In this document: in pieces, positions 16,037-41,091 of the stretch
Layout of the letters: every line of letters begins with the position of its first letter
Position numbering within the stretch: position 1 is the first letter of the stretch
NCBI GenBank assembly: GCA_016218495.1
Contig: JACRDU010000108.1
Span: 1-50,729, forward strand
Source: Elusimicrobiota bacterium
GTDB lineage: Bacteria; Elusimicrobiota; Elusimicrobia; UBA1565
Reading direction: 5' to 3'
Length of the DNA: 50,729 nt
Made by a program: the position numbers and the translations under genes
The notes under the pieces: model-generated
The model's input: only the letters and a program-made list of their open reading frames with translations
What the model was told of the DNA's origin: nothing
Databases searched by the model: none

Positions 16037-16722
16037 CGGTGCCCGCCCTCCTGCAAACGGAACCCGCAGCCCCGCACCGTCTCGATGCGGCGGCCGGCCG
16101 TCCCCAAACGGCGCCGCAGGCGCTGGACGGTCGTCTCCACCGCGCGCGAGGTACGCGGCGGCGGGTTCCCCCAGACGCGCTGTCCCAGGAAATCCCTCGT
16201 CAGCAGACGGCCCGGCCTTTCGAGCAACACCCTCAGCAGCTCGAACTCCGCGCGCCACAGACGCACCGCCCGGCCCTCGACCGTGCATTCATGTCGGCCC
16301 GGGTCGAGCCGGATGGGCCCGGATTCGAGCGGCCTCTCGTCGGGCGCGCCGCGGCGCACGAGAGCCGCCGCCCGGGCGGCCAGCTCGTCGGGATGGAACG
16401 GCTTGGGCAGGTAGTCGTCCGCCCCGGCCCGCAGGCCCAGCACGCGCTCCTCCACGCGGCCCCGGCAGGACAAGACGAGGACGGCCACCCCCCGCGCGTC
16501 GGGGCGGGCCCACAGGCCGCGGCAGAGCTCGAGCCCGTCCCCGTCCGGGAGCATCCGGTCGAGAACCACCAGGGCCGGCAGGTCCCGGTCGAGCGCGCTG
16601 CGCGCCGCCGCCATGCTGCCGACGCCCGTGACCCGGAACCCCTCGGCTGCCAGGATTTCAGATACCAAAGTCCGTATGGCCGGCTCGTCCTCGATGACGA
16701 GCGCCCCGCGCATGTTCTTCAT
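16033..16722 (-). CDS. OmpR/PhoB-family response regulator
   Basis: This 229-residue protein has an N-terminal receiver (LVIEDEPAIR, phosphoacceptor Asp in VVLDRMLPDGDG, LSCR, Lys in YLPKPFHP). A winged-helix DNA-binding domain follows (LWRAEFELLRVLLERPGRLL, VETTVQRLRRRLG, IETVRGCGFRL). It should be a phosphorylation-controlled transcription factor. No kinase shares its strand nearby; the closest is at 17488 on the other strand. The upstream gap to the divergent regulator at 16797 is 74 bp. Confidence 0.93.
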   Translation of the reverse strand: MKNMRGALVIEDEPAIRTLVSEILAAEGFRVTGVGSMAAARSALDRDLPALVVLDRMLPDGDGLELCRGLWARPDARGVAVLVLSCRGRVEERVLGLRAGADDYLPKPFHPDELAARAAALVRRGAPDERPLESGPIRLDPGRHECTVEGRAVRLWRAEFELLRVLLERPGRLLTRDFLGQRVWGNPPPRTSRAVETTVQRLRRRLGTAGRRIETVRGCGFRLQEGGHR

Positions 16723-16796
16723 GCCCAGAGGATGCCCGCGCAGCCCGCCGCGGTCTTGTGCTGCATGTGGGCAAGTTGTGAAATGTACAGGAGTCC

Positions 16797-17495
16797 ATGC
16801 CCCGGCTGCTGATCATCGAAGACGACCCCAGGATAGTCGACTCCGTGACGAAGGCGCTCTCGTTGGAGGACGGATTCTCCGTGCGCTCCATCGCCGACCC
16901 GGAGGCGGCGCCGGCCGCCGCCGTCGAATACCGCCCCGACATCATCCTCCTCGACATCCGGCTTCCCGGCGGGGACGGCCGGCAGGTCCTCAAGCGCCTC
17001 AAGGCGAACCCCGCCACCCTCGCCATCCCGGTCATCTTCCTGACCGGGATGGCCAGCGAGGGAGACCGCGTGCTGGGCCTGGACCTGGGCGCGGACGACT
17101 ACGTCGTGAAGCCCTTCGGGGCCCTGGAGCTGCTGGCCCGCATCAAGGCCGTGCTCCGCCGCACCAGCCCGGCCTCCCAGGGCGGGCTCCTGCACGCCGG
17201 GGCGCTGCGCCTCGACCCCGCGTCGCGGCGCGCCTTCCACGGCAAGGACGAGCTCTCCCTGCAGCCCAAGGAGTTCGAGGTCCTCTACCTGCTGGCCCGC
17301 CATCCCGGCCGGACCCTGTCGCGCGCGTTCCTGATAGAGAACACCTCCTCGTACGGGACGGAGGTCGAAACGCGCAGCCTCGACACCCACATCAAGAACC
17401 TGCGCAAGAAGCTGGGGGCGGAGGCCTGGTGGATCCGGACCGTCCACGGCATGGGCTACCTGTTCAGCCAGGACGGACCGCCCGCCGATGCGTGA
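16797..17495 (+). CDS. OmpR/PhoB-family response regulator
   Basis: This 232-residue protein has a receiver with LLIIEDDPRIVDSV, phosphoacceptor Asp in ILLDIRLPGGDG, Thr in IFLTGMAS and Lys in YVVKPFGA. Its winged helix contains LQPKEFEVLYLLARHPGRTL, LDTHIKNLRKKLG and IRTVHGMGYLF. AGGAG precedes the ATG. The downstream histidine kinase starts within its last codons (8-bp overlap), so this is a classic cognate RR-HK pair. Its targets are unknown; the pilin operon begins just after the kinase. Confidence 0.95.
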   Translation: MPRLLIIEDDPRIVDSVTKALSLEDGFSVRSIADPEAAPAAAVEYRPDIILLDIRLPGGDGRQVLKRLKANPATLAIPVIFLTGMASEGDRVLGLDLGADDYVVKPFGALELLARIKAVLRRTSPASQGGLLHAGALRLDPASRRAFHGKDELSLQPKEFEVLYLLARHPGRTLSRAFLIENTSSYGTEVETRSLDTHIKNLRKKLGAEAWWIRTVHGMGYLFSQDGPPADA

Positions 17496-36369: not shown

Positions 36370-38385
36370 GTGAACTGGGCCGCCCTGCTGGTCCTCCATG
36401 GGACCTTCCTCGCCTCCCCCGCCCTGGGGGCGGACAAGCCGCGCCTGAAGCCCCTGCAGCGCGGGGGCTATCAGGCCGAGTCCCAGAAGGCCCGGACGAC
36501 GGAGGACCAGACCGAGGTCCTCCCCCCGCTGAGCCAGACCCTGCAGACGCTCCAAGAGGCCCAGAACTCGCCGTTCGTGACGCCCCAGCTGCGCGAGCAG
36601 ATCCAGGGGGTCATCGACCAGGGAACGGCGATGGAACCGACCACCGGGGGCGTGGAGTACAGCCGTCCCGCCGGCGCCCGGCGTCCGGGCAACGTGCCCC
36701 CGGACTCGCGCCGGGCGCTGCCTCGGGCGGAACCCGCCCTCGACGTCCGCGCCCTGCGGCCCCAGTCCCCCGTCTCCGACCGCTCGGCCGCCCCCGGGTC
36801 TTCCGAGCTGCGTTCGGGCGCCGCCGCGGCCGGCGTCTCGTTGGCGCCCCCGCCGCTCCAGCCGTATTCATCGTTGCGCGAGTCCAGCATCCGCAGCTTC
36901 GCCGTCCCGCTCGAGAAGCAGGCGGTCTGGGCGGGACGCGCCGCCGCCGCCCAGCAGACCCTCGATGACCGCCCCGCCGACCCGGCGGCCCTCCAGAGCC
37001 TGGCCCGGGCCGAATTCGCCCAGGGCCGCTTCGAGGCTGCCGCCGCGGCCGCCGAGCAGGCCGTGCAGGCCTCTCCCGAGAGCGCGGACGCCGCCTGGCT
37101 GCGCGCGATGACCCGCGAACGCCTGGGCGACCGGACCGGAGCCATGTCCGACGCGAACCGGGCCGCCCTGCTCGACCCGAGCCGCTACGCCGGCCGCGCC
37201 GCCATCGCCGCTGCGGGCGGGTCCCTGTTCGACCCGGGCAGCGACGACTCCTGGGGACTGCTGGAGCAGATGAATCCGCCGCCCAAGGCGGAAGGCCGGA
37301 CCCCCTGGGTGCTGCTGCTCTTGCTGCTGCTGGCCGGCGCGAGCGGCGCGGCGGCCTACGCCGGCCGGGCGCTGTGGAACGACCTGCCCCCCGAGAACAA
37401 GCAGCGCGTCATGGGCCTGCTGCGCAAGGCGGCCCCGAAGGGCTCCTTCCCGGTCCCCCGCGCCGCCACCCCGCTGCCGGTCAAGCCGGGGGCCGCCCTC
37501 AAGACCGGGGCCTCCTTGGGCGCGAAGTTCGACCTCGTCGGCCAGGTGGGGCGCGACGGGACCGTCGAGGTCTGGAAGGCCCACGACCGCACGCTGGGGC
37601 GCGACGTCCTCCTGAAGCGCCTCTATGCCGGTCCCGACTCGGGGGAGCTCGACCTGCGCCGCGCCGACGCCAAGCAGGCGGCCGGCCTGCACCACCCGAA
37701 CATCGTCGAGCTCTACGAAATCGTGGAGCTTCCCGAAGGGCTCTTCGCGGTCTACGAATACGCGTCCGGGAAGTCGCTGCGCCAGGTCCTCGACGAGAAG
37801 AAGACCCTCTCCCTGCGCCAGACCCGGGACGTCCTCATCCCGGTCTGCCGCGCTCTCGAGCACGCGCACCGGCGCGGGATCGCACACGGCGGCCTGTCCC
37901 CCGAACGCATCATCCTGACCCGCCAAGGCTACGTCAAGGTGATCGACTTCGTCCTGGCGCGGACGACGGGGGCCGGAACCGAGGCGTATTCCGCCCCGGA
38001 GACGCGCCGCGGGGCCCCCACCCCGGCCTCCGACGTCTATTCCCTGGGGATGGTCCTGCACGAGCTGCTCGTCGGCGAGCGGCCGGGGGCGGGCGAAAAG
38101 GAGCCCCCGGCGTCCTTTGCCCGCATCCTGGAGTCCGCGCTCGACCTCGACGCGCGCTCACGGACGCAGTCGGCCCGGAAGTTCCTCGAGGACCTGCGCG
38201 GGGTCAACGCGTCCACGCTCCCCCCCCGCCCCATCGAGACCCCCGAAGAGGCGCTGGCCCAGGCGGAGTCCAGCGAGCCCCAAGCGGACAACGCCGCGGT
38301 CAAGGACGCCGCGGCGCAGGGGGCCGACGACGGCGATGCCCTCGTGGACCCCGGGCCCGCCACCCATCCGACCAATCCGGGCTGA
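36370..38385 (+). CDS. Membrane pseudokinase with exported TPR-like region
   Basis: This 671-residue protein has a signal-like N-terminus (NWAALLVLHGTFLASPALGA). A Pro/Arg-rich segment and TPR-like repeats follow (residues about 180-270; FAQGRFEAAAAAAEQAVQAS), then a membrane helix (about 311-332) and a Ser/Thr-kinase-like domain (375-610). The kinase keeps the ATP Lys416 (DVLLKRL), Asp526 of the DFG position (IDFVLAR) and an APE motif (SAPETRRG). The catalytic HRD loop reads HGGLSPERI, so the catalytic Asp is Gly508. It is therefore probably catalytically dead and acts as a scaffold or ATP switch. The final 60 residues are acidic and low-complexity. Confidence 0.75.
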   Translation: MNWAALLVLHGTFLASPALGADKPRLKPLQRGGYQAESQKARTTEDQTEVLPPLSQTLQTLQEAQNSPFVTPQLREQIQGVIDQGTAMEPTTGGVEYSRPAGARRPGNVPPDSRRALPRAEPALDVRALRPQSPVSDRSAAPGSSELRSGAAAAGVSLAPPPLQPYSSLRESSIRSFAVPLEKQAVWAGRAAAAQQTLDDRPADPAALQSLARAEFAQGRFEAAAAAAEQAVQASPESADAAWLRAMTRERLGDRTGAMSDANRAALLDPSRYAGRAAIAAAGGSLFDPGSDDSWGLLEQMNPPPKAEGRTPWVLLLLLLLAGASGAAAYAGRALWNDLPPENKQRVMGLLRKAAPKGSFPVPRAATPLPVKPGAALKTGASLGAKFDLVGQVGRDGTVEVWKAHDRTLGRDVLLKRLYAGPDSGELDLRRADAKQAAGLHHPNIVELYEIVELPEGLFAVYEYASGKSLRQVLDEKKTLSLRQTRDVLIPVCRALEHAHRRGIAHGGLSPERIILTRQGYVKVIDFVLARTTGAGTEAYSAPETRRGAPTPASDVYSLGMVLHELLVGERPGAGEKEPPASFARILESALDLDARSRTQSARKFLEDLRGVNASTLPPRPIETPEEALAQAESSEPQADNAAVKDAAAQGADDGDALVDPGPATHPTNPG

Positions 38386-38448
38386 TGTCCTCATACCCCC
38401 GCTAAGCCCAATGCCGGTTAGTTAAGATCTTCTTCGCACCTGGACTGC
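38386..38448. other. Spacer between pseudokinase gene and inverted-repeat element
   Basis: These 63 bp contain no gene, promoter or hairpin that I can support. Confidence 0.4.
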
Positions 38449-38508
38449 GCCATTTACGCGCCTCGGGCGCGTGGGTTCGAGAATCGCAGACAGCGCGATT
38501 CTCGAACC
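38449..38508 (+). repeat. Left double-hairpin end of the 455-bp element
   Basis: This 60-nt unit is GCCATTT, then stem ACGCGC/GCGCGT (loop CTCGG), then G, then a perfect 14-bp stem GGTTCGAGAATCGC/GCGATTCTCGAACC (38474-38487 and 38495-38508, loop AGACAGC). It aligns gap-free with the reverse complement of 38844-38903 (46 of 60 identical). The differences are in loops or are compensated within stems. Confidence 0.85.
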
Positions 38509-38843
38509 TCCTCTCCTTTACATCGCGCGCGCGATGCTAATTTAGATTGCAGTAGGCGGAAGATTTTTCCAGACCGTGACGCGGCCGAAGAACGGCATCA
38601 GCAAGCCGACTCTAGACGATTGCGCAGAACGCGGAGGCAATCCCAGCCTCGGGACCTGCACGCTCTATTGAAATAGTCCTGCATTTTCCATATCAAATTC
38701 CGTCGCCAGCGACGGCAAATTGCCCTGAAAACATGTGAGGAATTTCCCGGAAACTCTCATGTATTGGGCCCGGTTTCAGCCGCGCCGAGGGCTCTGCCGC
38801 GGCATCCCCGCTCGCCTCCGGAACTCCATCCCCTGGCACCAGG

Positions 38844-38903
38844 CCTTCGAGAATTGCGCCGCATGCAATTCTCGAAGGCACGCGCACACAGCGCGTAAAC
38901 GGC
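38844..38903 (-). repeat. Right double-hairpin end of the 455-bp element
   Basis: Read on the minus strand: GCCGTTT, stem ACGCGC/GCGCGT (loop TGTGT), G, then a perfect 14-bp stem CCTTCGAGAATTGC/GCAATTCTCGAAGG (loop ATGCGGC). Relative to the left end, the outer GG:CC pairs are swapped to CC:GG and a C:G pair is changed to T:A, so base pairing is preserved. It ends 14 bp from the ispDF stop. Confidence 0.85.
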
Positions 38904-38917
38904 CCCGGCGATGCCCG

Positions 38918-40111
38918 TCACAGCGGGGCTACCGCCCCGCTGCGCAGGCGGACGGTGGCCACAGCGTAGCAGGCGATGGCCTCGCCCCGGCCGATTTCGC
39001 CGAGGCCCTCGTGGCTCTTCGCTTTGAGGTTGACGCGGCCGCGCTCCAGCCTGAAGCAGGCGGCCAGGGAGTCGGCCATCCGCCCGTAGTGGGGCTTGAG
39101 CTTGGGCTCTTCGGCCACCAGGGTCACGTCGAGGTGCTCGATCGCCGCGCCGCGGGCGGCGGCCTTCTCGAGGACGTGCTCCACGATCCGCCTGGAGTCG
39201 AGCCCCTTGAAGCGCGGGTCGGAGGGCGGGAAGGCGATCCCGATCTCGCCGTCCCCCATCGCGCCGAGCACGGCGTCGCAGGCCGCGTGGAGCGCCGCGT
39301 CGCCGTCGGAATGCCCCAGCAGGCCCTTCGTGTGCGGGACCTCGACCCCCGCGAGCATGAGCGGGCGGCCTTCGACGAGCCGGTGTATGTCGTAGCCGAA
39401 CCCCGTGCGCTCCGACGGACGCCCCAGCCGCGAGGACAGGAACGCCTCGGCCGTGACCAGGTCCTCGGGAGTCGTCACCTTGATGTTCTCATAGGAGCCC
39501 TCGACGATGCTGACCTTCTGCCCGGTCCGTTCCACCAGCTGCGACTCGTCGGTGGCGTCGGCCTCTTGGGCGAAGCGCGACAAGGCGTCCGCCAGCACCC
39601 CGCGCCGATAGGCCTGCGGGGTCTGCGCCTGCCAGTACTGCGCGCGGTCCGGCGTCTCGGCCACGGTCCCGTCGGGGGCCGCCCGCTTCAGGGTGTCCTT
39701 GGCCGGCACGGAAACCACGGCGGCGCCCGTGCGCAGCGCCGCCTCGACGGCGGCCCGGATCACGGCGGGCGTCACCAGCGGCCGGGCGCCGTCATGCACC
39801 GCGACGGCGTCGACCTCGGGGGGCAGGGCCGCGAAGCCGTTGCGGACCGAACCCATCCGGGTGGCGCCCCCCGGCACGACGGCGACGCGCTCGCCGGCCA
39901 AGCGCGCCCCGTGCAGGCCGATGTTCTCGGGCGACAGGACCAATGCGACCTTCACGACCTCCGGACAGTCGAGGAAGGCCTTCAGGGCCCACTCGCAGAC
40001 CGGGAGCCCGCAGAGCGGCAGGAACTGCTTGGGCCGACCCATCCGCGTGCCGGACCCGGCCGCGACGATGACGGCCCCCACGGCAGGACGGGTCGGCCCG
40101 CCGCGGGTCAT
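38918..40111 (-). CDS. ispDF: Bifunctional IspD/IspF isoprenoid enzyme
   Basis: This 397-residue fusion starts at the ATG at 40111, overlapping the upstream stop. The N-terminal IspD (about 1-230) has AVIVAAGSGTRMGRPKQFL, AVHDGARPLV, QTPQAYRR and NIKVTTPEDL: it makes CDP-methylerythritol. The C-terminal IspF (about 240-397) has FGYDIHRLVEGRPLMLAGV, HSDGDAALHAACDAVLGA, SDPRFKG and KAKSHEGLGEIGRGEAI: it forms the cyclodiphosphate. Both belong to the MEP pathway. The order radA-yacL-ispD-ispF is familiar from other bacteria; here the last two are fused and disA is absent. Confidence 0.96.
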   Translation of the reverse strand: MTRGGPTRPAVGAVIVAAGSGTRMGRPKQFLPLCGLPVCEWALKAFLDCPEVVKVALVLSPENIGLHGARLAGERVAVVPGGATRMGSVRNGFAALPPEVDAVAVHDGARPLVTPAVIRAAVEAALRTGAAVVSVPAKDTLKRAAPDGTVAETPDRAQYWQAQTPQAYRRGVLADALSRFAQEADATDESQLVERTGQKVSIVEGSYENIKVTTPEDLVTAEAFLSSRLGRPSERTGFGYDIHRLVEGRPLMLAGVEVPHTKGLLGHSDGDAALHAACDAVLGAMGDGEIGIAFPPSDPRFKGLDSRRIVEHVLEKAAARGAAIEHLDVTLVAEEPKLKPHYGRMADSLAACFRLERGRVNLKAKSHEGLGEIGRGEAIACYAVATVRLRSGAVAPL

Positions 40112-41091
40112 CGCTCTCCTTTGGCCTTTATGAACACCATGCGGCCCGCCTTCGTCTGCGTGATGGAGGTCACGGTGCCCTCCACGCGCTTGCCCACATG
40201 GCGGGAGCCGCCCTCGATGACGACCATCGTGCCGTCGTCGAGGTATCCCACGCCCTGGTCGCGCTCCTTGCCCTCCTTCATGACGAAGACCCCCATGGTC
40301 TCGCCCGGCAGGACGACGGGCTTGAGGACCATCGTCAGGTCGTTGACGTTCAGGCACGGCACGCCCTCCACGGTGGCGACCTTGGAGAGGTTGAAGTCCG
40401 TGGTGAGGAGCTTCGCCCCCAGCTCCTGGGCGAGCCGGACGAGCTTCCCGTCCACCTCGGTCGCCTCCGGGACGTCGCGGTCGAGGATGCGCAGGCGGAC
40501 CTCGCGGTTCTCCTGCAGGCGGGCCAGCATGTCCAGGCCCCTGCGGCCGCGGGCCCGCTTGAGGCTGTCGGGGGAGTCGGCCATATGGTGCAGCTCGTTG
40601 ATGACGAAGCGCGGCACGACCAGTGAGCCCGAGAGGAAATGGACCTCGCAGATCTCGACCACCCGGCCGTCGATGATGGCGCTGGTGTCGAGCACCTTCA
40701 TGTCCGCCCCGCGCTTCTTCGACGAGGCGAGGATGTCGCGGTCGAGGCTGTCGAGCTCCGGGAACTTCCGGATGCTCAGCACCATCCCCAGCGCCCCGAT
40801 TGCGAAGTAGCGCAGGGTCGCGAACTGCGCCCAGACCTCGTATACCCGCTCGTTGCCCGTGTTGAAGACGACCACGTCGAGCAGGCGCATCAGGATGATG
40901 GACGCGCAGGCGCCCAGCAGGCCGAACACCGTCGTCAGCAGGCTGACGCTCTCCAAGGCGACCTCGACGGCGACCAGCGCGATGCCGGTGCCGACCCCGA
41001 TCACGACTCCCGTCTTATCACGGCTTATGGACATGTATGTGAGGAGCGGACACGCCGCGAGGATCGCGGCGCGGTATAACCATGCGCTCAT
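40108..41091 (-). CDS. yacL: Membrane PIN-TRAM protein (YacL-like)
   Basis: This 327-residue protein has four N-terminal membrane helices. A PIN domain follows (VLDTSAIIDGRVVEIC with the first catalytic Asp; VINELHHMAD; RGRRGLDML; LLTTDFNLSKVA). The C-terminal TRAM domain (RDQGVGYLDDGTMVVIEGGS; GRMVFIKAK) suggests RNA binding. PIN domains are metal-dependent nucleases; the acidic residues appear intact. The bacterial role is unclear. ATGA overlaps join it to radA upstream and ispDF downstream. Confidence 0.92.
   Translation of the reverse strand: MSAWLYRAAILAACPLLTYMSISRDKTGVVIGVGTGIALVAVEVALESVSLLTTVFGLLGACASIILMRLLDVVVFNTGNERVYEVWAQFATLRYFAIGALGMVLSIRKFPELDSLDRDILASSKKRGADMKVLDTSAIIDGRVVEICEVHFLSGSLVVPRFVINELHHMADSPDSLKRARGRRGLDMLARLQENREVRLRILDRDVPEATEVDGKLVRLAQELGAKLLTTDFNLSKVATVEGVPCLNVNDLTMVLKPVVLPGETMGVFVMKEGKERDQGVGYLDDGTMVVIEGGSRHVGKRVEGTVTSITQTKAGRMVFIKAKGER

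Follow-up and report, generated by a model that had tools for sequence, protein, structure and literature searches.

The locus studied here raises the question of what occupies the 532-bp gap between two convergent genes in a contig of an Elusimicrobiota bacterium, of which 50,729 nucleotides (the window) were analysed. The block lying in this gap is probably a copy of a family of REPIN/MITE-like, non-autonomous mobile DNA elements in Elusimicrobia. Inverted end units around a short, palindrome-rich interior are dispersed as a discrete block through one genus (three species) and a neighbouring genus; the copies are intergenic, with a preference for convergent 3' ends, and some are placed between the inverted tips of other small elements.

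The left end of the block (38449-38508) and the reverse complement of its right end (38844-38903) were aligned without gaps with 46 of 60 positions identical, exactly the value reported in the earlier note. Within the span tested, they are the best 60-nt inverted pair across the whole window, the runner-up (43/60, at 16396-17117) being located in genes that read from their sequence as two response regulators. Folding as single-stranded DNA reproduced the double hairpin already described for both ends, consisting of a first stem, one G and a 14-bp stem. The folds had energies of -25.8 and -23.5 kcal/mol, compared with averages near -10.8 after dinucleotide shuffling (z = -6.7 for each end, and 0 of 200 shuffles equally good). 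The interior had been considered AT-richer and apparently non-coding, in agreement with its GC content of 57% versus 69% for the window and with the codon-model gene calls, none of which overlapped it. Conservation reaches approximately 10 nt beyond the TTTACG that starts each end, slightly past the limits first proposed, and an extra 18-bp tip is present outside the block. The features of the locus are detailed in Table 1.

Table 1. Features of the window locus, in order of position.
Feature	Position	Strand	Basis
Protein kinase-like flanking gene (pseudokinase in the earlier note), 3' end facing the element	36370..38385	+	Codon-model call
CTAA, 3 nt outside the tip CAATGCCGGTTAGTTAAG	38402-38405		Window copy
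Outer tip CAATGCCGGTTAGTTAAG of a MITE-like composite in the own genome	38409..38426	+	8 copies in the own genome (at most 3 mismatches; reversed control, 0)
Left foot GACTGCGCCA	38443..38452	+	Family consensus AACGGMGNAR, from the outer flanks of 59 elements
Left TTT, hairpin 1 (ACGCGC-CTCGG-GCGCGT) and G	38453..38473	+	Fold; almost no variation among the 54 ends aligned
Left hairpin 2, perfect 14-bp stem, 7-nt loop	38474..38508	+	Fold; paired changes across the family
Interior, non-coding, 57% GC	38509..38843	.	Similarity to own-genome loci on contigs C131 and C145
Interior palindrome CATCGCGCGCGCGATG	38521..38536	.	Sequence read directly; similar sequence in other own-genome copies
Interior palindrome CCGTCGCCAGCGACGG	38700..38715	.	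Perfect-palindrome count over 63 elements, window element included
Right hairpin 2, perfect 14-bp stem, 7-nt loop	38844..38878	-	Fold
Right hairpin 1 (ACGCGC-TGTGT-GCGCGT) with G and TTT	38879..38899	-	Fold; 66-bit model hit
Right foot, degenerate	38900..38909	-	Position relative to the family consensus
Flanking gene (ispDF in the earlier note), 3' end facing the element	38918..40357	-	Codon-model call

The own genome (G000) was compared with two relatives of the same genus (G001 and G002), with a member of the neighbouring genus (G003) and with other members of the phylum. Orthologues of the protein kinase-like flanking gene were present in G001, G002, G003 and G006, and those of the ispDF gene in the same four genomes and in G005; the functional start of the latter gene may be downstream of its ORF start. 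At the ispDF stop codon, a 40-bp stretch (window 38902-38941) has matches of 85-90% at several places in G001 and G003 and is, to judge from its sequence, another dispersed repeat.

Four loci with such ends were found in the own genome. Besides the window copy, these were detected on contigs C131 and C145 in searches with the block, and on C82 with a covariance model; the window interior is approximately 84-85% identical over about 295 bp to the loci on C131 and C145. Many two-ended copies are present in both same-genus relatives. A pattern search allowing up to one mismatch gave 5, 64, 126 and 16 ends in G000 to G003, respectively, versus 0 with the reversed pattern, and 0 or 1 in each of four other family members. 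The covariance model of the end unit, suggested in the earlier note and built from an alignment of 54 ends, recovered many copies in the own and related genomes, with matches in 9 of 295 genomes of the phylum Elusimicrobiota, all nine in one order, the rest of which holds traces only. An exact 22-mer scan of GTDB-wide contigs yielded 103 stretches and, among the matches listed, all were in three Elusimicrobia MAGs. No end units were found in the plasmids, phages and viral contigs searched, no description of this double-hairpin element family was found in the literature search, and Rfam contained no family matching the end unit. A total of 63 distinct two-ended elements was collected, with sizes of 196-718 bp, mostly 200-430 bp.

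Several members showed particular characteristics. Locus L071 (G001 contig C16, 31695-32412) is a 718-bp two-ended element with a DUF6998 ORF inside (Pfam, E = 1e-43), which is cargo within an otherwise non-coding family. The perfect DnaA-box sequence TTATCCACA was counted 6 times across 19 kb of element sequence versus once in 302 kb of surroundings; its carriers are elements of G002 (e.g., L030, L150 and L171), and several of these boxes are beside a perfect interior palindrome. In L055 and L087 of G001 the right double hairpin is absent and the outer GCCGT-type foot apparently kept, so that the hairpin block seems to have been deleted. Units with a hairpin 1 of the same kind and a variable hairpin 2 were also observed in genus g7 of the same order (G010, G014 and G019; L251-L259 and L275), most of them with two additional hairpins upstream, and some of these multi-hairpin elements have CCTGAA-type tips and TTAA/TTAG-like flanks.

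The most similar element pairs were 86-91% identical over their full length, in either orientation, while the identity of their outer flanks was mostly 0.1-0.4. Copies alike from end to end in unlike flanks agree with the REPIN/MITE-like non-autonomous element proposed at the outset; all copies compared have diverged by at least 9%, and thus current activity cannot be inferred. The 532-bp gap that separates the flanking genes in the window corresponds to one of 5 bp in G003 and to a 37-bp overlap of the two genes in G006. The comparison of orthologous loci between the pseudokinase and ispDF genes, also suggested previously, therefore showed the block to be absent in two relatives, which belong to another genus of the family and establish this absence with no readable exact junction; G001 and G002 were not usable as empty sites because their two flanking genes are on different contigs. 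Symmetric and asymmetric scans gave no clear enrichment of a target duplication at the foot at any offset. Since the hairpin ends are not bordered by such a duplication, a single-strand (HUH/Y1-like) route seems more plausible than a classical DDE one. With gene calls from a simple codon-model caller, 29 of 55 elements were located between convergent genes, whereas among the other adjacent gene pairs 29 of 191 were convergent (Fisher p = 9e-8), and 3 of 63 elements overlapped a predicted ORF. The distance from both convergent stop codons is often 10-30 bp.

Some copies are nested in other mobile elements. The outer flanks showed inverted matches in 10 of 59 elements (at or above the 99th percentile of cross pairs; 0.6 expected), and this signal vanished once the 12 highest were removed. 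A general palindromic target preference was rejected, as it is true for about 10-12 copies with no signal among the remainder. Several of the enclosing outer repeats belong to the type found beside Y1/RAYT genes. In the clearest case, from G001, the inverted repeat bracketing the RAYT gene of contig C26 also encloses one element on contig C28; the same tip forms 13 further short inverted pairs, whose spacers measure 5-32 nt as against 317 nt when occupied, which indicates that the element occupies a REPIN loop. Loci L300-L311 of G001 contain a RAYT-linked REPIN family, GGTGYCAGKTGTTGACTTGTTGAC, of short dimers with complementary inner bases. At locus L109 (G001 contig C11) the element is beside a gene starting MKLYAAIDLHSNNN, which looks like an IS110-type transposase, and the outer inverted repeat CAGTCCCTGAAGTTCTGATT is present on both sides. 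Seven near-identical copies at contig ends of G001 have a common 65-bp outer sequence starting GTAACTGCTCAGG and are divergent beyond it; they were ruled out as the autonomous parent, since they lie inside a multi-copy insertion-sequence-like repeat, the interior of which is absent from the bin past 110 bp.

The end unit is composed of a foot followed by TTT and two hairpins that vary in different ways. Outside the foot, base frequencies are at background by -11/-12 (59 elements). Over the 54 aligned ends, hairpin 1 is near-invariant, with five of its six pairs invariant, and 11 of the 14 pairs of hairpin 2 show both-sided changes, with 134 such cells versus 2 one-sided, these tallies being of sequences and not of events. 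Among 135 distinct ends, hairpin 2 has 36 different 5' arms, and its 1890 pairs comprise 1851 Watson-Crick, 6 G-T (G-U) and 33 mismatched. Selection on structure rather than on sequence, as the earlier note had inferred, is in accordance with the paired changes of hairpin 2 and does not extend to hairpin 1, conserved in its sequence; support for it is only partial, since the same pattern would result if one palindrome arm were corrected from the other. Such templated correction, with one arm serving as the template for the other at replication, is a doubtful yet serious explanation of the paired changes. It would account for common both-sided and nearly absent one-sided changes, and the perfect interior palindromes (in 34 of 63 elements versus 1 after shuffling) likewise change in sequence between elements yet stay perfect; on the other hand, hairpin 1 has no such drift, and the tally mixes inherited and repeated changes. 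Templated correction concerns the covariation only and can be compatible with mobility. A role of the unit pair as RNA, such as terminating transcription in both directions or stabilising mRNA 3' ends between convergent genes, is very unlikely. The units do adjoin convergent genes at their 3' ends and present the same orientation to either gene, but the near absence of G-T/G-U pairs from hairpin 2 points to DNA and not RNA, no T tract was read after hairpin 2, Rfam gave no match, and dispersal would be left unexplained. Opposed structured RNAs, the other candidate put forward at first, thus found no support as the primary reading.

Two further explanations assign the movement to known kinds of elements. 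The hairpin units could be subterminal passengers of classical DDE-type MITEs defined by tips outside the hairpins, which we consider unlikely. In three other own-genome loci, CAATGCCGGTTAGTTAAG or a close variant is present on either side in inverted orientation, bordered outwards by N3-CTAG-N3; these 10 bp agree between sides at 10/10, 8/10 and 8/10 positions and are a probable target duplication, in G000 only. One of these three loci, on contig C18, has a related interior and no hairpin unit and, together with the location of the block beside a MITE-like tip, suggests that the moving unit there may be tip-defined. Related hairpins of genus g7 within CCTGAA-tipped elements are also in favour. 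The window copy has no recognisable right-hand CAATGCCGGTTAGTTAAG tip. Against tip-defined elements, conservation ends at the foot over 59 elements (most from G002), and one 258-bp class includes copies with either of two outer tips as well as copies that have no such tip. It is less probable still that the elements are true REPINs, the end unit being a REP moved by a Y1/RAYT transposase of the genome. Their layout of inverted hairpin units with a spacer, intergenic and with no target duplication, fits; every many-copy genome encodes Y1 transposases (4, 12, 5 and 6 matches in G000 to G003), and some copies are between RAYT-type inverted repeats. Nevertheless, when Y1 loci from G000-G007, G010 and G014 were checked by pattern, model and flanking inverted repeats, the end unit adjoined none of 43 Y1 ORFs, many of which possess inverted repeats of their own, of the GGTGYCAG or GGGGTCAG type, and neither the foot nor the hairpin 1 consensus contains a GTAG/GTGG-type guide 5' of the hairpin. 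RAYT was rejected as the mobiliser, as none of the examined Y1 loci carries the end unit. Neither an autonomous copy nor a cognate transposase turned up among the end positions listed and the loci examined; MAG assemblies break at identical repeats, and an autonomous copy could therefore be missing from them.

Insertion sequences of the IS200/IS605 group have subterminal DNA hairpins, make no target duplication, and have two ends that do not match as inverted repeats. The elements of this family resemble them in the subterminal hairpins and the lack of target duplication (PMC6006769) and differ in that their ends are inverted repeats of each other and no transposase gene is inside. REPINs are inverted REP doublets with compensatory changes (PMC3116915), and recognition of REPs by TnpAREP relies on a GTAG guide (PMC8266576). 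In common with REPINs and BIMEs (PMC3116915, PMC8266576), the elements have two inverted hairpin units and a spacer, are intergenic and multi-copy, show no target duplication and have stems with paired changes. Unlike them, they have two hairpins per end, one fixed and one letter-free, are mostly 200-430 bp in size, have no GTAG guide and are not adjacent to a RAYT gene bearing their end unit. Previously described repeats include REP dimers that have inserted into palindromes, CGTC repeats that lack a transposase, and TIRs of tyrosine transposase genes that contain a GGGGWSAS motif, some genes having double palindromic TIRs (PMC3733652). The present elements are similar to the CGTC-tagged dimers in being palindromic dimers with no adjacent cognate transposase, but they have no CGTC end and a 14-bp stem versus 8-9; in contrast to TIRYT repeats, tyrosine-transposase TIRs enclose some copies and do not form their ends (PMC3733652). 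With bacterial MITEs they share size, inverted ends, non-coding nature and dispersal, and are distinguished by the absence of target duplication at the conserved boundary, by structured ends and by having no identified parent insertion sequence.

As a non-autonomous REPIN/MITE-like family, the elements would be mobilised in trans, recognition depending on the sequence of hairpin 1 and on the folded DNA shape of hairpin 2. Copies nested within other elements may be carried along by their hosts, as suggested by the identical copies in one insertion-sequence-like repeat of G001. It is conceivable, though rather unlikely, that folded DNA is recognised at both donor and target and that the elements insert into hairpin loops, such as those of REPINs, via a not-yet-described enzyme. 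According to the literature examined, an end design with one hairpin kept in sequence and another kept only in shape is new to REPIN/MITE-like families. The approximately 135 natural variants of hairpin 2 constitute a test set for stem pairing by selection or by templated correction, and the nesting in RAYT-type inverted repeats, together with 13 empty copies of one family, offers a handle on hairpin-loop insertion.
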